DNA of 64,000 nucleotides from Allorhodopirellula heiligendammensis. GTDB taxonomy: Bacteria > Planctomycetota > Planctomycetia > Pirellulales > Pirellulaceae. Shown in pieces: positions 33,284 to 43,161 of the stretch (position 1 is the first letter of the stretch; each line of letters starts with the position of its first letter). Under the pieces are notes generated by a model. The model was not told the origin of the DNA, did no database searches, and was given only the letters and a program-made list of their open reading frames with translations. Where the stretch lies: assembly GCF_007860105.1 (NCBI RefSeq), contig NZ_SJPU01000002.1, forward strand, positions 2,571,882 to 2,635,881. Reading direction: 5' to 3'. The translations under genes were made by a program, and so were the position numbers.

Positions 33284-33325
33284 GCGGGAGCGGGAGCGGG
33301 AGCGGGAGCGGGAGCGGGAGCGGGA
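33284..33325. repeat. Seven-copy GCGGGA tandem repeat
   Basis: Seven exact 6-bp units begin 13 bases after the stop of the flippase-like gene. The array is noncoding as placed, and its copy number is likely variable. The rest of the gap to 33463 shows nothing else recognisable. Confidence 0.9.
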
Positions 33326-33463
33326 GGCCCCGCCCCTAGTCAAGGAAAGGCTTTGGCTGGGTAAATCGCCCCATCCCAGGACGGACTTCTCCCGCCGTGA
33401 TTTTCCCGCGGAATTCATTCGCTGGCGTCAGCTCGCAGCGCCCCCGTTTGCGATCTCCTCGCT

Positions 33464-34456
33464 TCACGCCAGTGCCCGCTGCAACGCCTCACGCACGACC
33501 GGCAAGACTCGCTCTTGAACGTCAGCGAGTGTTCCTTCTTGGAATGCGCCCGCGGCCGCCTTATGGCCACCGCCACCGAACTGACGAGCGATCTCGTTGC
33601 AATCAAACGCACAACGACTGCGAAAAGACAGCTTGAAACCACCGCGAAGCTGTTCGACAAAGATCACAGCGGCCTGCGTGCCCCGGATCGACAGTGTCAG
33701 ATTGATGGCATCTTCGGTGTCACTGGCCTCGGCTCCGCAGTCGGCAAAATCCCCTTTGCTGACATGCGTGTAAACGAGCGCACCATCCATCTCGGTGGTG
33801 GTTCGGGAGAGAATTAAACCACGCAGTTTCAGACGCCCGATCGTGTCTCGCTCATATAAATCTCCGTACACTTCGCTCGGAACGACGCCGACCTCCATCA
33901 GCCTCGCAATCACACGGTACGTTTCCGGCGTCACCGAAGGAAACCGAAACCATCCTGTGTCAGTCGCGATTGCCGCAAACACGGGCACCGCCATCGCGCG
34001 GGTGAGCGGAACATGGAACGCATCGGCGGCCTGAACCACCAACTGTCCGGTCGCTTCAGCCTGGTAGTCCTTGTACATCGTGGCGCCGAGATCGTCTTCG
34101 CCCACATGGTGATCGAGCACCATTTTGTCTGCCCGAGACGCACGAATGACGTCGCCCATGTCGCCCAGCTGTGCCCAGGCGCTGGTGTCGAGAATCATGA
34201 TGCAGTCGGCCTTCACATCCTCGGCTTCGACGCTATCGCCGAGCACATCGATATTCCCTGCCGGGTCCAGGAACGAAAGCGCCGGCGGCGTGCGGTGAGC
34301 GTTGATGATCCGGACGTCCTTGCCGATCGCCCGGAGGACCTCAGCCATGCCCAGTTCACTGCCCAAGGCATCACAGTCAGGGCGAATATGACTGACCAAA
34401 ACAAACGATTGATAATGGCTGATTTGATCGACGAAGGCTTTCCAATTGACTCCCAC
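33464..34456 (-). CDS. nrnA: DHH/DHHA1 phosphoesterase, NrnA-like (oligoribonuclease / pAp phosphatase)
   Basis: A 330-residue protein of the RecJ-like DHH family. Metal-binding motifs: LVSHIRPDCDALGSE (His23, Asp27, Asp29), LDTSAW (Asp near 90), DHHVGEDD (about 116-123). The C-terminal DHHA1 motif GGGGHKAAAG is the substrate-binding loop. NrnA enzymes degrade 2-5-nt RNAs, dephosphorylate pAp, and some members cleave pGpG. Start is GTG 34456. The gap to the upstream GGDEF-RibF gene is only 33 bp, same strand, so they are probably one transcript. ribF and nrnA are neighbours in many bacteria, which fits. Confidence 0.9.
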   Translation of the reverse strand: MGVNWKAFVDQISHYQSFVLVSHIRPDCDALGSELGMAEVLRAIGKDVRIINAHRTPPALSFLDPAGNIDVLGDSVEAEDVKADCIMILDTSAWAQLGDMGDVIRASRADKMVLDHHVGEDDLGATMYKDYQAEATGQLVVQAADAFHVPLTRAMAVPVFAAIATDTGWFRFPSVTPETYRVIARLMEVGVVPSEVYGDLYERDTIGRLKLRGLILSRTTTEMDGALVYTHVSKGDFADCGAEASDTEDAINLTLSIRGTQAAVIFVEQLRGGFKLSFRSRCAFDCNEIARQFGGGGHKAAAGAFQEGTLADVQERVLPVVREALQRALA

Positions 34457-34489: not shown

Positions 34490-36241
34490 TTAACGAGATT
34501 GTATTTGGGAAGCGAGGCTGCGCACGGTCGCGATATCCCGCTGGATCTGTACCGCGAGCGTTTCAGCACTCTTGAATTTTTCGACTCCACGGAGTTGATC
34601 GAGCCAGTGAACCGTCACTGTTTGACCATACAGGTCGCCATCGTAATCTAAACAATGAACCTCGACCTTAGTCCGCTGTTCATCGTCAAAGGTGGGGTTG
34701 GGCCCGACGTGCACTGCAGCGAGCAGCGGGCCAACGGCAGGTCCTTGCGCGGGTGAACCTTGCCGGGCCAGCACCTCCCCAGACAAACCCGCTCTAGGCA
34801 ATCCCGCTCTAGGCAATCCCTGGCCGGTGACGTAGGCGGCGTAGACGCCATGGCCCGGAATGAGCGTGGCGACCTCCACTAAGTTGGCGGTCGGGAACCC
34901 CAACGAACGCCCGCGTCCGGCACCCGCAGCCACCCGTCCACTGATCTGATAAGTCGACTGCAGCATGGTGTTGGCTGACCGTATCTGGCCCGCCGAGATA
35001 GCCTCGCGGATCCGCGAACTGCTGACCATGCGTTCCTCCTCCATGCGAGGCTCGACGATCTCCAGAGATTTTCCTGACTGCTCGCACAAAACTCGCAATC
35101 GATTGATGTCACCGCCGCGATCTCGACCAAAGAAAAAATTAGGCCCCTCGACGACGCTCTCCGCCTGCAGGCGATTGGCGATCAACAACTCAAAGAATTC
35201 GTCAGCCGTGTGATTGAGGAATTCCAGCGAGGCTGGGCAAACAACCAGGGCGTCGATCCCGAGTTCACCCATCAACTCGGCGCGTCTGGGAATCGTCGTC
35301 AAACGGGCGGGAGCACTATGCGGTCGCAAGACGGTTGCGGGGTGCGGGTCGAGAACCACCACCACGGCGGGCCCCCCCACTCGATCGGCTGCCGCGCGAA
35401 CGCGCGCGAGCAACTCTCGATGGCCCGCGTGCACGCCGTCAAAATTGCCGATACTGACAGCTCCCCGTTTGACTCGATCCTGCACCTCCGGAACGCTCTC
35501 CAGCTCGTCCAAATGGCAGGTCAGAATGGGAGCAGGGCAGGGCGGTTTCATTTCCAGACGGGTATCGTTCTCGAACTTGGGACGGAGAATGTTGCCAGTA
35601 TGCCCGATCGGTGCGGATTCCGTTAGGGCGGCGTCGAAACAGACTTGGTTACGGCCTCGCTTTTTTGCCAGGTAGAGAGCTTTATCGGCCTGTCGCACCA
35701 CCGCCTCCACCGACAACTCGGTGTTACATCGGCTCAGCCCCACGCTGATCGTGACCTCAATCGCAGCATGCCCAACCTCGATGGGCCGCTCGGAAATCCG
35801 CTTGCACAATTGGTTGAATCGGGCAGCAGCAACCTCGACGGGCGCAACGATCAGAATCGCGAATTCGTCGCCACCATGCCGTGCGACCATACTCGCGTTG
35901 CCACATCCACCCTCCAACGTCGAGGCAATTCGCTGCAAGACGATGTCGCCGACAGGGTGCCCGTACGAATCGTTGATCGCTTTGAAATGATCGACGTCGA
36001 CTAACGCCAATACAAACGAATTGCCCTCCTCGTGGCATGCTTGAAACAATGCATCGAGACATTTATCGAAGGCGCGGCGGTTGGACAACCCTGTCAACGC
36101 GTCGGTGTGCGCCTCGGTAAGGTAGTTTTCGCTGCGCCGCGTCCGCCGGCCCAGCAACAACCCCATGGCGAAACTGCCCCCTGAGAGCAGGCAGGCAACG
36201 ATCACGCCAACGACGAGCAAAATGGCGTTCTCATTCAACAT
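34490..36241 (-). CDS. ribF: GGDEF domain fused to bifunctional riboflavin kinase/FAD synthetase
   Basis: One uninterrupted 583-residue frame. A membrane helix (about 6-30) leads to a GGDEF domain (about 42-205): THTDALTGLSNRRAFD-type start, VDVDHFKAINDSYGHPVGD, and the active-site GGDEF at 123-127. The upstream RxxD inhibitory site is absent (Gly114 and Ser117 occupy its positions). After a short linker comes complete RibF (about 235-583): the FAD synthetase motif GNFDGVHAGH (265-274), the flavokinase motif GRGRSLGFPTANL (442-454) and Glu527 in KVEVHCLDYDGDLYG. RibF makes FMN and FAD; GGDEF makes cyclic di-GMP. A Met at 231 could allow separate RibF translation. A 15-bp duplicated stretch (GLPRAGLPRAGL, about 475-486) sits in the flavokinase domain. 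Confidence 0.9.
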   Translation of the reverse strand: MLNENAILLVVGVIVACLLSGGSFAMGLLLGRRTRRSENYLTEAHTDALTGLSNRRAFDKCLDALFQACHEEGNSFVLALVDVDHFKAINDSYGHPVGDIVLQRIASTLEGGCGNASMVARHGGDEFAILIVAPVEVAAARFNQLCKRISERPIEVGHAAIEVTISVGLSRCNTELSVEAVVRQADKALYLAKKRGRNQVCFDAALTESAPIGHTGNILRPKFENDTRLEMKPPCPAPILTCHLDELESVPEVQDRVKRGAVSIGNFDGVHAGHRELLARVRAAADRVGGPAVVVVLDPHPATVLRPHSAPARLTTIPRRAELMGELGIDALVVCPASLEFLNHTADEFFELLIANRLQAESVVEGPNFFFGRDRGGDINRLRVLCEQSGKSLEIVEPRMEEERMVSSSRIREAISAGQIRSANTMLQSTYQISGRVAAGAGRGRSLGFPTANLVEVATLIPGHGVYAAYVTGQGLPRAGLPRAGLSGEVLARQGSPAQGPAVGPLLAAVHVGPNPTFDDEQRTKVEVHCLDYDGDLYGQTVTVHWLDQLRGVEKFKSAETLAVQIQRDIATVRSLASQIQSR

Positions 36242-36270: not shown

Positions 36271-37527
36271 TCAGACGAACGTCGAAACCGCATCTTGGGT
36301 GCGAATCAACTCGCCGCGCGCAATTACCACCAAGCCGCTGTCGGTCACCGTCAAACCACGCTCGGCATCCGCGACCGGATCATAACCAATCTCCATTTCT
36401 GGTGGGATTCGCACGCCCTTGTCGATAATGGCTCGTCGAATCCGGCTATGCCGTCCCACCTCAACGTCGTCGAACAAAATACTATCCTCGATCTGAGCGT
36501 AGCTATTGACCCGACAGCCTGCCCCGATGACCGACCGCATCACGCTGCCGCCGCTGATGATGGCGCCTTGGCAAATGATCGAATCCATGGCCACTCCCTG
36601 GCGCGTCGAACGACCATCACTGCCGAATACGAATTTCGGGGGTGGCAACTGGGGCCGGAACGAGCGAACGGGCCACTGCGAATCATACAGATTGAGCTGG
36701 GGATCCACGTTGACCAGATCCATGTTGGCCTCGTAGTACGCTTCAATCGTGCCGACATCTCTCCAGTATGCATCGGATTTGCGATTCTCATCGGTGAACG
36801 GAAATGCCAATACGTTGCTGTCAGCAATCGCCCCCGGAATGATGTTCTTTCCGAAGTCATGGCTGCTGTTGAGATCCGTTGCGTCGTCGCACAAACGCTC
36901 AAACAGGAACCGCGTGTTGAACACATAGATCCCCATCGATGCCAAACACACCTCGGGGTTGTCCAGCGTGGCCTGCGGGTGCTCGGGTTTCTCTTGGAAC
37001 TCCAGTAGCCGGTCGTCCGCATCAACTTGCATCACGCCAAACTGATGAGCTTCCTGGCGATTAACCCGGAGGGCTCCCACTGTGACATCGGCACCCTTAC
37101 GACGGTGAAAATCGACCATCGTTCGATAGTTCATCTTGTACAAATGATCGCCCGCGAGGATCACAACGTACTCAGGTAATTCCCGCTCGATCGCATAGAT
37201 ATTTTGGTAAACAGCGTCAGCAGTACCCTGGTACCAATTATCGTCGATTCGCTGCTGGGGCGGCACGACATCAATGAACTCGCCGAGCTCTCGACAAAAA
37301 TAATTCGTCCACGCTAGCTGGATGTGCCGGTCGAGCGACTGGGCTTTGTACTGCGTCAACATCAAGACGCGTCGCATGCCGCTGTTGAGACAATTGCTCA
37401 ACACAAAGTCAATGATCCGGTAGCAGCCGCCAATCGGTACCGCCGGCTTGGCACGATCTCGCGTCAAGGGTTCCAGCCGCGAACCACGGCCTCCCGCCAA
37501 GATGACCGTCAGGGTTTGTTGCATCAT
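36271..37527 (-). CDS. glgC: Glucose-1-phosphate adenylyltransferase
   Basis: About 418 residues. The N-terminal nucleotidyltransferase motif LAGGRGSRLEPLTRDRAKPAVP, then YRIIDFVLSNCLNSG, the LTQYKAQSLDRHI segment, and VILAGDHLYKMNY are diagnostic of GlgC, which makes ADP-glucose for glycogen synthesis. The C-terminal left-handed beta-helix (about 290-400) is seen in SIICQGAIISGGSVMRSVIG. The start is placed at Met 37527 just before the conserved motif; in-frame Mets at 37539 and 37572 are possible. It lies 29 bp upstream of the GGDEF-RibF gene, same direction. Allosteric control is expected from the family. Confidence 0.93.
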   Translation of the reverse strand: MMQQTLTVILAGGRGSRLEPLTRDRAKPAVPIGGCYRIIDFVLSNCLNSGMRRVLMLTQYKAQSLDRHIQLAWTNYFCRELGEFIDVVPPQQRIDDNWYQGTADAVYQNIYAIERELPEYVVILAGDHLYKMNYRTMVDFHRRKGADVTVGALRVNRQEAHQFGVMQVDADDRLLEFQEKPEHPQATLDNPEVCLASMGIYVFNTRFLFERLCDDATDLNSSHDFGKNIIPGAIADSNVLAFPFTDENRKSDAYWRDVGTIEAYYEANMDLVNVDPQLNLYDSQWPVRSFRPQLPPPKFVFGSDGRSTRQGVAMDSIICQGAIISGGSVMRSVIGAGCRVNSYAQIEDSILFDDVEVGRHSRIRRAIIDKGVRIPPEMEIGYDPVADAERGLTVTDSGLVVIARGELIRTQDAVSTFV

Positions 37528-38138
37528 TTCGAGATCCATCCGTTGCCAAACTGCATCGCGAATCAGTTTCATCGCACTGCATTATTGGGCAACAGACACC
37601 CCATCGTGCAGGCAATAGGGTCTTGATCGGCACCGCATTGCCGAAACCCTCGAACCAACTTAGCAAATAGGTACGTAGTCTGCTTGGGTAATTTTGTCGC
37701 AGCCACCGAATCTGCGTGAGTTGACGCTCACGGCCCCCAGGCGAATGATCAACCAAAACAGTTTTTGCCACGTAACAGTTCACATCAGTGCGCTTTCCCC
37801 CATCCGAGCCAAACAACGGTTCCGGACCTGGGTGTGTTACATCGCGTGTGCTTCACTGCGTGCGTCCCTACGAGACTTTGGCCGCCAGGGTGGTGGCTCG
37901 TTTCGGGCACGTGACCCAGTGACTGCACTGCAAATCACTGTGCCCTATTTCACTGTGCCCTATTTCACTGTGCCCTGTTCCACTGTGCCCTGTTTCAATG
38001 TGCCCTGCTAACTCTGACCAAACTCGCTGTGAGCCAAGGCATCGTCGAAAATCCTCGTGTCGCCACGATCAGCTCGGCGGGTTCAGGAATCGCGTTCTTG
38101 TTCCCCCTCCCCACTTTCCTCCACGGAGAACCCAAATC
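37528..38138. other. 611-bp intergenic region between glgC and the HtrA gene
   Basis: Divergent genes flank this region, so it should hold both promoters; no confident -35/-10 pair was found. It carries the 15-bp tandem array at 37936-38010 and ends with a good ribosome binding site (GGAG, 38125-38128). A possible 105-residue frame at 37694-38011 mostly encodes the repeat and is not convincing. Confidence 0.5.
37936..38010. repeat. Five-copy 15-bp tandem repeat
   Basis: Units CACTGTGCCCTATTT start at 37936, 37951, 37966, 37981 and 37996. The first two are identical and the later ones differ by a few bases. It lies about 130 bp upstream of the HtrA start, where copy-number change could alter promoter or leader spacing. 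Confidence 0.9.
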
Positions 38139-39728: not shown

Positions 39729-39818
39729 TCTGGGCTGATCGTGTCTGGGCTGATCGTGTCTGGGCTGATCGTGTCTGGGCTGATCGCGTCTGGGCTGATC
39801 GCGTCTGGGCTGATCGCG
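39729..39818. repeat. Six-copy 15-bp tandem repeat
   Basis: Units TCTGGGCTGATCGTG (copies 1-3) and TCTGGGCTGATCGCG (copies 4-6), starting at 39729, 39744, 39759, 39774, 39789 and 39804. The array lies between convergent genes, 27 bp from the stop of the small secreted protein gene. The two internal variants are grouped in blocks, as expected for slippage. Confidence 0.92.
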
Positions 39819-40704: not shown

Positions 40705-43161
40705 TCATGCCCCGTCGCCCAGATCAAGTCGTTCACCGTATCGACGCAGCACTTGGTCGCGCAGATTAGCGAGTTCTGGATCGTCCATGTCTGGATCTTC
40801 ATCAATCAGTTCCTGCGCCATCGCTCGAGCGACCTGTAGGATCTCGACATCGCGGTTCAAGTCCGCAATCCGCAAAGGTGCCAATCCGCTCTGCTTCTTC
40901 CCCAACAGATCACCGGGACCACGCAGCCGAAAATCCGCTTCAGCAAGCTCGAAACCATCCGAAGTCTGCTCAAACACTCGCAATCGTTCACTCTCCTCGG
41001 GCGAGCGTTCTCCATCGGTGAAAACGCACACGTACGCCGCGTGCGTACCTCGCGAGATCCGTCCGCGGAGCTGATGCAATTGAGCCAAACCAAATCGATT
41101 GCCACCGAGAATCGTCATCACAGTTGCGTTGGCGACGTCCACGCCGACCTCAATCACCGTTGTGCTGACGAGCACATCAATTTCACCTTCGGCGAACCGC
41201 TGCATCACCTCCTGCTTCACCTCCGGCTTCATCCGTCCATGCAACAACTCGATGCGGTGTTCGGGGAACACCTGATCGCGAAGCCGCTCGAACGTACGGC
41301 TGACCGAGGTAACATCCTCCTCGCTCTCAGCGACGTCCTCGTTGGCGTCCTCGTTGGCGTCCTCGTTGGCGTCCTCGTTGGCGTCCTCGTTGGCGTCTCC
41401 CGATCGCGCGGCATCGGCAACCTCGGCGCCGCTGGCATCGGCATCGGTGGCCTCGGCATTGCTGGCGTCCGCACCAGGCATCTCGTCAACAGACGTCTCG
41501 TCACCAACACGCGGTGCCACCACGTACGCCTGGCGACCCTCAGCGATGCGTTGACGCACGAAATCCCACCAGCGTTCTCGCCACTTATCATTGGCAAGAT
41601 AGGTATGAACATCCCCGCGCCCTGCCGGCTTTTCACGTAGCGTGCTGAGGTCCACATCCCCGAACTGGGTCATCGCCACGCTGCGCGGAATCGGTGTGGC
41701 CGACATGACGAGGTAATGCGGATCAATGCCTCCCGATCGCAGTTGCACCCGCTGGCGTACCCCGAACTTGTGCTGTTCATCGATGACGCACAGACCGAGC
41801 GAGTGAAAATCAATGTCGTACACGAGTGCTTGCGTGCCCACGATCAGATCTAATTCGCCCGCTGCGATCTGGGCGAGCGTTTGTCGTCGCTCAGCGGCGG
41901 TCAACGACCCGCACAGCAACCCGATCCGCACGCGGCTGTCGGCGAGTATCTTGGTGAGCGTTTGGTAGTGCTGCCGCGCCAGCACCTCAGTGGGAGCCAT
42001 CAGCGTCGCTTGATGCCCATTGGCGACCGCCAGCATCATCGCAAAGATTGCCACGACGGTCTTGCCGCTGCCCACGTCGCCTTGCAGCAGTCGATTCATG
42101 GGGAACTGCCGCCCCATCTCACGCGCGATCTCGCTGATCACGCGATCTTGATCCGCCGTCAACTCAAACGGGAAACGCCGCAGAATACGCTGCCGAATTT
42201 GCGGCGTGCACGGCATCTCGGGAGCCTGCAGCCGTCCCGTCAGCGATCGCCGGCGCATCGCCAATGCGAGCTGCATGACGAAGAGTTCTTGAAAAATCAG
42301 CCGTGTCCGGGCCGCCGTCAACGCATCTGCAGAAGGGGGTCCATGGATATCAAGCAACGTCGTGGCAATGTCCGGTAAATCACCGCCGGGTAAGTCATTG
42401 CCGATTCGACCTCCCGCCTCCCGCAATCGCTCCGCTGCCGCCGCCCGCAGCGACAACGGCATGACCTCCGTAACGTGGTTAGCAAGTACGCCGGCCACCC
42501 GACGTGTCAAACGCCGCAGCTCGTAATCCTTGATACCCTCGGTCAGCGGATAAACAGGCAAAATGTCGCCTTCCTGCTGAACAGTTTTCTCTCGCGACTC
42601 GCCGTGCACCTCATCGTCGGCGAGTTCGCCCTCGTCCAAAAGATCATACTTCGGATGCGAGAACGCCCACCGTAACCCCTCGAGTTTAGGGGTGCCACTG
42701 ATGCGAACCCAACGATCGAACGTCAACTGCTCGGCACGAAAGGGTTGGTTGAAAAAGACGATCCGCACCGCCCCCGAGTCGTTCTCGACAATGGCGGCGA
42801 ACAAGGACTTACCCGGGGTCCGGGAGACCAATTCCGCATCGGTGATCTTACCCACGAACGTCGCCGGAACGCCCTCGCGGAGGTCATCCACGCGGGTCGG
42901 CGGCGGCGGGAACTGATGCTCGCGGGGAAAAAAGAACAACACATCCTGAGCCTTGCGAAGCCCCAATTTCCGCAGCCGATCCGCCCGCGCGAGCCCCATC
43001 CCCGGGAGATACTGCAGCAGCGTGGAGAGCTCAAACTCAGCAGCGGGGACGCTTGCAGGCGGTTCGCTCGGTATGGCCGTCGGCGGCGGCGGATTCGCTG
43101 GATCGGTCACAACAGCAGGTTTTGGGAATGAGCGGCACGGACAAACGGCATTTCGCCTCAC
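40705..43161 (-). CDS. recG: ATP-dependent DNA helicase RecG
   Basis: An 818-residue protein, longer than the usual ~690. The N-terminal helix-hairpin-helix/OB wedge domain (about 45-300) includes LPGMGLARADRLRKLGL. Helicase motifs: LLQGDVGSGKTVVAIF (Walker A), DEQHKFGVRQR (DEQH box), MSATPIPRSVAMT, and in the second lobe ELLHGRMKPEVKQEVM and QLRGRISRGTHAAYV. RecG remodels stalled forks and Holliday junctions. The excess length comes from a Pro-rich N-terminal extension (about 12-40) and an acidic Ala/Asp/Glu insert in helicase lobe 2 that includes five ANED repeats. It stands alone; the downstream gap has repeats. Confidence 0.95.
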   Translation of the reverse strand: MRRNAVCPCRSFPKPAVVTDPANPPPPTAIPSEPPASVPAAEFELSTLLQYLPGMGLARADRLRKLGLRKAQDVLFFFPREHQFPPPPTRVDDLREGVPATFVGKITDAELVSRTPGKSLFAAIVENDSGAVRIVFFNQPFRAEQLTFDRWVRISGTPKLEGLRWAFSHPKYDLLDEGELADDEVHGESREKTVQQEGDILPVYPLTEGIKDYELRRLTRRVAGVLANHVTEVMPLSLRAAAAERLREAGGRIGNDLPGGDLPDIATTLLDIHGPPSADALTAARTRLIFQELFVMQLALAMRRRSLTGRLQAPEMPCTPQIRQRILRRFPFELTADQDRVISEIAREMGRQFPMNRLLQGDVGSGKTVVAIFAMMLAVANGHQATLMAPTEVLARQHYQTLTKILADSRVRIGLLCGSLTAAERRQTLAQIAAGELDLIVGTQALVYDIDFHSLGLCVIDEQHKFGVRQRVQLRSGGIDPHYLVMSATPIPRSVAMTQFGDVDLSTLREKPAGRGDVHTYLANDKWRERWWDFVRQRIAEGRQAYVVAPRVGDETSVDEMPGADASNAEATDADASGAEVADAARSGDANEDANEDANEDANEDANEDVAESEEDVTSVSRTFERLRDQVFPEHRIELLHGRMKPEVKQEVMQRFAEGEIDVLVSTTVIEVGVDVANATVMTILGGNRFGLAQLHQLRGRISRGTHAAYVCVFTDGERSPEESERLRVFEQTSDGFELAEADFRLRGPGDLLGKKQSGLAPLRIADLNRDVEILQVARAMAQELIDEDPDMDDPELANLRDQVLRRYGERLDLGDGA
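41335..41394 (-). repeat. Five-copy 12-bp coding repeat in recG
   Basis: Five units of GTCCTCGTTGGC (+ strand), encoding consecutive ANED repeats inside an acidic insert between helicase motifs of the second lobe. Being a multiple of three, copy-number changes keep the frame. Confidence 0.9.

Follow-up and report, generated by a model that had tools for sequence, protein, structure and literature searches.

A GGDEF domain joined in frame to RibF in Allorhodopirellula heiligendammensis and a second genome of its genus

The locus and the fused gene

The window analyzed here is a stretch of 64,000 nucleotides from the genome of A. heiligendammensis (contig NZ_SJPU01000002.1, positions 2,571,882 to 2,635,881), and all positions given below count from its first letter. 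On its minus strand lies a gene in which a GGDEF domain, of the kind found in diguanylate cyclases, is joined to RibF, the enzyme that carries FAD synthetase and riboflavin kinase activities. The features at the locus, in the direction of transcription, are:

36271..37572, minus strand: glgC-like nucleotidyltransferase gene (Pfam), 29 nt upstream of the fusion and probably co-transcribed with it
34490..36241, minus strand: fused gene of 583 codons, with a hydrophobic N-terminal stretch, GGDEF and RibF (open reading frame and Pfam; same fusion in G006)
36149..36229, minus strand: N-terminal hydrophobic stretch, residues ~5-31, followed by RRTRR, which is expected on the cytoplasmic side (translation read by eye)
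35645..36112, minus strand: GGDEF domain, residues 44-199 (Pfam), with the GGDEF motif at residues 123-127 (35861-35875)
35552..35638, minus strand: linker, residues 202-230, most of which aligns to the spacer between dgc and ribF in relatives (alignments, codon conservation)
35597..35626, minus strand: promoter-like element of ribF, CTAACG-N18-CATACT, within the coding frame (pattern search)
35549..35551, minus strand: Met231, at the place of the ancestral start of RibF in alignments (start ATG of the separate ribF in G003, G008 and G012)
35012..35470, minus strand: FAD synthetase (FMN adenylyltransferase) domain, residues 258-410 (Pfam; PDB 5fo0 match)
34517..34960, minus strand: riboflavin kinase domain, residues 428-575 (Pfam)
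33464..34456, minus strand: DHH/DHHA1 (NrnA-like) phosphoesterase gene (Pfam), 33 nt downstream of the fusion

A sequence-only reading of this DNA had described one open frame of 583 codons holding a membrane helix, an intact GGDEF motif with no RxxD inhibitory site and a complete RibF, and each of these elements is borne out. The frame starts with an ATG and runs over 583 codons at 34490-36241 of the minus strand, a strand that the earlier reading had left unnamed, and the plus strand at the same positions is interrupted by stops. Pfam assigns GGDEF to residues 44-199 (E 5e-40), FAD_syn to residues 258-410 (E 9e-39) and Flavokinase to residues 428-575 (E 2e-33). The GGDEF match is full-length (profile positions 1-161 of 161), with 137.3 bits against a curated cut-off of 23.8. 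The RibF part is also complete and in the usual order, covering positions 6-158 of the 158 in the FAD_syn profile and 2-122 of the 124 in Flavokinase, and it scores 200.9 on the NCBIfam ribF equivalog TIGR00083, above the cut-off of 184.35. The best PDB match is the RibF structure 5fo0 (E 1.3e-55, residues 257-579). As for the membrane helix, inspection by eye shows one hydrophobic stretch at residues ~5-31 followed by RRTRR. The GGDEF motif can be read from the translation at residues 123-127, and RxxD, an optional feature of such domains, is absent, with Gly114 at the R position and Ser117 at the D position.

The proposed check for another ribF was carried out by searching this genome, which is 97.63% complete, with the FAD_syn profile, and the fused gene was the sole match. 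Since it is the only copy of RibF found in the genome, both RibF activities are to be expected of it.

Short tandem repeats with units of 15, 12 and 6 bases are found in the window at 34784-34820, 37935-38007, 39729-39816, 41334-41397 and 33284-33326. Some of them lie within reading frames: one with 15-base units falls in the part of RibF that encodes the kinase, and one with 12-base units, encoding EDAN, in a putative RecG-like frame.

Distribution of the fusion

We compared the genome that is the source of the window (G000) with 12 other genomes of the genus (G001 to G012). Measured from stop to stop, the RibF frame spans 629 codons in G000 and 592 in G006, as against 319-359 in the other 11 (n = 13), and the 592 codons of G006 likewise contain GGDEF, FAD_syn and Flavokinase in one open frame. 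RibF is 74.9% identical between G000 and G006, and in an unrooted tree of NrnA and GlgC these two genomes form a pair that is set apart from the rest with a support of 100. The in-frame fusion of GGDEF to RibF is real.

At the level of the phylum, 392 genomes were searched, 362 of them with a match, and no further GGDEF-RibF fusion is seen among the matches listed. All ten listed frames of at least 442 aa contain FAD_syn and Flavokinase and none contains GGDEF (Pfam); DUF952 follows at the C-terminus in one of them, and in the remaining nine the only addition is an N-terminal stretch lacking a Pfam assignment. Frames below 442 aa were left aside because they were judged too short for a GGDEF domain (~160 aa) together with RibF (~310 aa). 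A separate search of 80 genomes (78 with a match) gave, besides the two fusions, frames of more than 450 aa in G055 and G047, where no GGDEF was detected by tblastn; the same holds for G048, and the searched stretch of G055 ended at the contig end. A scan of the contigs gave at least 80 loci; those listed match the query only up to residue 251, on the GGDEF side, and were left out of the comparison.

A different RibF fusion occurs in G421, a genome of the same class, where FAD_syn and Flavokinase are followed in frame by DUF952 (L170:894-2258, minus strand).

With regard to the domain-architecture check suggested for this protein, the fusion is present in G006 and no other is seen among the phylum matches listed. 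In the literature searched, which takes in few subscription papers and no domain-architecture database, no described case of a GGDEF domain or diguanylate cyclase fused to RibF or FAD synthetase was found, and within that scope the statement that none had been described holds. The combined architecture appears to be new with regard to these literature and genome searches.

Gene neighborhood and origin of the fusion

The gene glgC precedes the diguanylate cyclase gene (dgc) in 13/13 genomes of the genus, and nrnA follows ribF in all 13 as well. The two pairs are found apart in six of them (G002, G004, G005, G007, G009 and G011), where glgC-dgc is located at another locus than ribF-nrnA. Five genomes have the order glgC-dgc-ribF-nrnA, with dgc and ribF as distinct frames. 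The two genes share a 4-nt overlap in G001 and G010, and spacers of 84, 84 and 134 nt lie between them in G003, G008 and G012, respectively. G000 and G006 show this same order, but there dgc and ribF are a single frame. Alignment with the five split genes shows that a segment of ~100 residues, which in those genes separates the hydrophobic stretch from GGDEF, is missing from the fused pair. The pair is also without the last residues of the cyclase, its stop codon and part of the spacer, so that the frame enters the spacer of ribF.

Because five genomes carry a separate dgc directly upstream of ribF, the fusion looks like the product of a deletion. Because the other relatives in the 80-genome comparison lack it, we infer that the fused gene is the derived state. 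Within this one genus, several stages of such a fusion coexist: separate loci, neighbors with a spacer, overlapping neighbors and one frame.

The position of glgC beside the cyclase in every genome of the genus offers a lead towards a possible connection between c-di-GMP and glycogen. According to a report on Streptomyces, GlgX binds c-di-GMP, with binding residues that are conserved among streptomycetes and absent from the GlgX of E. coli (PMC9530166).

The linker and the RibF start

When the linker DNA is aligned to the DNA upstream of the separate ribF genes, a common block is seen. The pattern CT[AG]AC[ACG]-N18-CATACT lies upstream of ribF in 11/13 genomes of the genus and is absent in G001 and G010; in the 11 genomes it is located 45-53 nt before the farthest nearby in-frame ATG of ribF. 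The 64-kb window contains a single match, in the linker of the fused gene, and in the nine genomes that combine the pattern with separate genes it sits in the spacer ahead of ribF. In G003 the element is found at the start of the stop-to-stop frame of RibF, ahead of the first ATG. The stop codon of the upstream gene falls within the first hexamer in G002, G005 and G009, so part of the conservation of this hexamer may have another cause. Compared with the sigma-70 consensus, each hexamer agrees at 3-4 of 6 positions and a promoter scan did not flag the element, which could be a site of a different kind. No Shine-Dalgarno sequence was seen before Met231.

The 4-nt overlap of dgc and ribF in G001 and G010 goes together with the lack of the upstream element, as if ribF relies on the dgc transcript in these two genomes.

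The possibility that the common block belongs to the last part of the coding region of a gene lying upstream was considered and mainly rejected: in G004 and G011 that gene, presumably of the NAD(P)H-hydrate dehydratase-like type, stops before the element, and in G007 no same-strand frame of at least 60 aa covers it.

Where G000 and G006 have the same residue, the codon is identical at 16/20 sites of residues 202-230 and at 166/351 sites elsewhere (Fisher p 0.004); for residues 202-243 the counts are 24/29 and 158/342 (p 1e-4). The synonymous difference between the two genomes is 0.29 in the linker versus 0.62-0.69 in GGDEF, RibF, GlgC and NrnA. Third positions of the linker are identical at 21/29 codons, a value that is equalled by windows near residues 337-366. 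Its dN/dS of 0.54 over 30 codons indicates that there is no clear constraint on the linker at the protein level.

A stretch similar to CCCTGCCCTGCYCC (window 35528-35542, minus strand) closely follows the RibF start in G000, G003, G006 and G008 and closely precedes it in the six species whose dgc is at another locus; the stretch is similar as DNA in the coding and the non-coding setting alike.

These data suggest that the own promoter of ribF may survive inside the fused frame. RibF alone is probably still made, as a soluble protein, since the element and the ancestral start at Met231 are kept in the linker. With a separate RibF probably available, flavin synthesis need not be entirely tethered to the membrane, and the earlier claim that it is so tethered is unsupported as it was stated, because the linker keeps the element and the start codon of a separate ribF. 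More generally, a fused frame is no proof of a fused-only product when a promoter may survive within it.

The c-di-GMP system in the fusion lineage

The genomes with the fusion differ strongly from the rest of the genus in their c-di-GMP proteins (completeness of G006 is 99%). G000 has two GGDEF matches and G006 one, against 7-14 in the other 11 genomes (7-13 when seven weak matches with E >1e-6 are left out). In profile searches, EAL was found in neither G000 nor G006, versus 1-5 matches in each of the 11 others; HD_5 (HD-GYP) gave none in either, versus 7-11 in the others, where some proteins are split in two pieces; and PilZ gave none in either, versus 1-3 in all of the 11 others. A strong FliG_C match (E ~1e-41) is present in each of these 11 and missing from G000 and G006, which retain only a weak one (E 4e-8 and 2e-6); weak matches of this sort are present in the others too.

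MshEN domains are retained, with four in G000 and three in G006 versus 4-8 in the other genomes of the genus. However, by our own scoring against the published c-di-GMP-binding motif (PMC5013675), both halves of the motif are found in 0/4 domains of G000 and 0/3 of G006. The best domain has 10/11 and 6/11 positions of the two halves, and the same values were obtained for one of two domains tested in G004. As none of the four G000 and three G006 proteins carries both halves of the motif, MshEN is unsupported as a surviving receptor. Looking for a working c-di-GMP network in G000, we found neither a phosphodiesterase (EAL or HD-GYP) nor a receptor (PilZ, or MshEN with both halves of the motif). 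The other GGDEF protein of G000 is a PAS-GGEEF protein (L044:2467-3492, minus strand), encoded ~38 kb away from the fusion and beyond the limits of the window.

GGDEF frames similar in length to the PAS-GGEEF protein are also present near ribF, on the same contig, in G003 and G012, and none is seen there in G006.

Taken together, this looks like a joint loss of flagella and c-di-GMP signaling in the fusion lineage, where the loss of flagella is deduced from FliG alone. As G000 has a single further GGDEF and gave no match to EAL, HD-GYP or PilZ, little known c-di-GMP machinery is left to couple to, and the claim that flavin synthesis is linked to c-di-GMP signaling goes further than these findings allow.

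Selection on the fused GGDEF domain

Branch distances were taken on a species tree whose root was placed on the six genomes that carry dgc at a separate locus. The distance of GGDEF from the common ancestor is 0.80 in G000 and 1.06 in G006, versus 0.18-0.29 in the five sisters with split genes, meaning that the fused domain evolves ~3-6 times faster. For NrnA the distances are 0.08 (G000) and 0.10 (G006) versus 0.05-0.10 in the sisters, for GlgC 0.15 and 0.20 versus 0.11-0.15, and for RibF 0.93 and 0.83 versus 0.40-1.03. Since these three proteins are near or within the range of the sisters, the acceleration is mainly in GGDEF. Between G000 and G006 the dN/dS is 0.19 for GGDEF and 0.13 for RibF, and the GGDEF value is 0.05-0.09 in those split-gene pairs that allowed its calculation; all of these are rough values because dS is near saturation. 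Selection on GGDEF thus appears relaxed yet far from absent.

A chosen set of 13 signature positions, covering GG(D/E)EF and the binding of metal, guanine and phosphate, was compared with the 11 unfused orthologues, all of which read GGEEF. Both fused genomes retain the residue at 12 of these positions, and the only change is from Glu to Asp within GG(D/E)EF. In the columns that are invariant in those 11 orthologues, 29/87 are changed in the fused genes. The chance of keeping the 12 signature residues is 0.005 if the Glu/Asp position is left out, and the chance of keeping at least 12 of 13 is ~0.03 by a hand calculation in which Glu/Asp is counted as a change. Synthesis of c-di-GMP needs two GGDEF domains together, and the segment before GGDEF that could dimerise in the relatives is missing in the fused protein. 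The fused GGDEF can probably still bind GTP or act as a cyclase to some extent.

Interpretation

The explanation we lean towards, with modest confidence, is a gene with two outputs that was born by deletion: a membrane-anchored cyclase-RibF protein and a soluble RibF, with a last surviving cyclase under selection that is relaxed but still acting. The deletion would have removed the end of the cyclase, its stop codon and part of the spacer, so that the cyclase frame ran into ribF. Transcripts coming from the glgC side would then give the membrane-anchored cyclase-RibF protein; full-length protein should be made from such a transcript when it is translated, because GGDEF is under selection at the protein level and no stop occurs before the end of RibF. 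The internal promoter and Met231 would give ordinary soluble RibF, which would cover the essential flavin supply, and the simplest reading is that the fusion was harmless because RibF kept its own start, in a lineage that was losing c-di-GMP signaling and FliG, the flagellar switch protein. The fused GGDEF would be the last (G006) or next-to-last (G000) cyclase in a lineage without detectable phosphodiesterases, PilZ or typical FliG, and this last surviving cyclase would ride on an essential gene. Coupling of flavin and c-di-GMP is possible but unproven in this scheme.

One alternative is that the GGDEF half has no function at all and is kept only as the in-frame upstream part of an essential gene. 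The loss of most other c-di-GMP genes, the faster evolution (0.80 and 1.06 versus 0.18-0.29 in five sisters) and the loss of the segment before GGDEF would fit such a relic. On the other hand, a dN/dS of 0.19 is far under 1, the signature residues were kept in both genomes, and losing a relic that lies upstream would do no damage if ribF has a promoter of its own. We therefore regard it as unlikely, although it deserves to be kept in mind.

A second option is functional coupling, in which the long protein is the working, membrane-anchored RibF and the syntheses of flavin and c-di-GMP regulate each other; RibF could, for example, act as a dimerisation or sensor part that replaces the lost segment. 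Such coupling would agree with the finding of a single ribF in the genome, with a frame that is open in both G000 and G006, with the signature residues kept in GGDEF and in both RibF domains, and with a GGDEF that lacks its preceding segment. Yet a promoter-like element and a start of ribF are retained, EAL, HD-GYP and PilZ were not found in G000, and the GGDEF part evolves faster than in the sisters while RibF does not, all of which makes this option a doubtful one. A variant of it, a flavin/c-di-GMP hub in which the remaining cyclase controls RibF or is controlled by it while free RibF is also supplied from the internal promoter, seems to us rather improbable too.

It is also conceivable that the GGDEF half acts without c-di-GMP, in a protein–protein or GTP-binding role, as has been proposed for GdpS (PMC9714401). 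This precedent, the lack of EAL, HD-GYP and PilZ matches in G000 and the 0/4 MshEN domains of G000 with both halves of the motif speak for it; the GTP-binding and catalytic signature residues, which are all kept or replaced like for like, speak against it, and we give this role only a slim chance. A spurious joining of two genes during assembly or sequencing, which the separate genes in 11/13 genomes of the genus might suggest, is ruled out for practical purposes by the well-diverged G006 (RibF 74.9% identical), where the junction is the same and the same segment is lacking.

The fused gene combines a second-messenger enzyme with an essential housekeeping enzyme in a lineage which lost most of the messenger system. 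This raises a testable question: what is the role of such a cyclase, and why is its active site kept, in genomes where no degrading enzyme of a known type and no PilZ receptor were found?

Comparison with known systems

The RibF part resembles the known RibF proteins (TIGR00083; PDB 5fo0 and 1mrz) in having both domains complete and in the usual order, and residues 257-579 align along 5fo0. The difference is that 5fo0 (338 residues) and 1mrz (293 residues) consist of RibF alone, whereas here ~230 residues, with the hydrophobic stretch and GGDEF, stand ahead of it. The GGDEF part has its closest counterpart in the glgC-dgc cyclase of the genus, which lies behind glgC in every one of the genomes and shares the hydrophobic start followed by GGDEF. 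Unlike the fused protein, the 11 unfused cyclases read GGEEF and either end before ribF or sit elsewhere, and the five aligned split genes have ~100 extra residues before GGDEF.

GdpS is the only GGDEF protein of staphylococci, for which a c-di-GMP-independent role was proposed, and the fused protein is similar to it in being the sole or near-sole GGDEF protein of its genome (PMC9714401). However, it scores 90.4 on NF047872, where the cut-off is 400, and is thus not a GdpS. We know of no GdpS that is fused to RibF.

Finally, residues 464-630 of PDB 8qpf and 8qj3, whose chains are named ammonium transporter, match the fused GGDEF. Judged by entry name and residue range, these chains too combine a GGDEF-like domain with a protein that is not part of signaling. 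In these proteins a transporter is the partner and lies ahead of GGDEF, whereas in the gene described here the partner is a cofactor-making enzyme that lies behind it.
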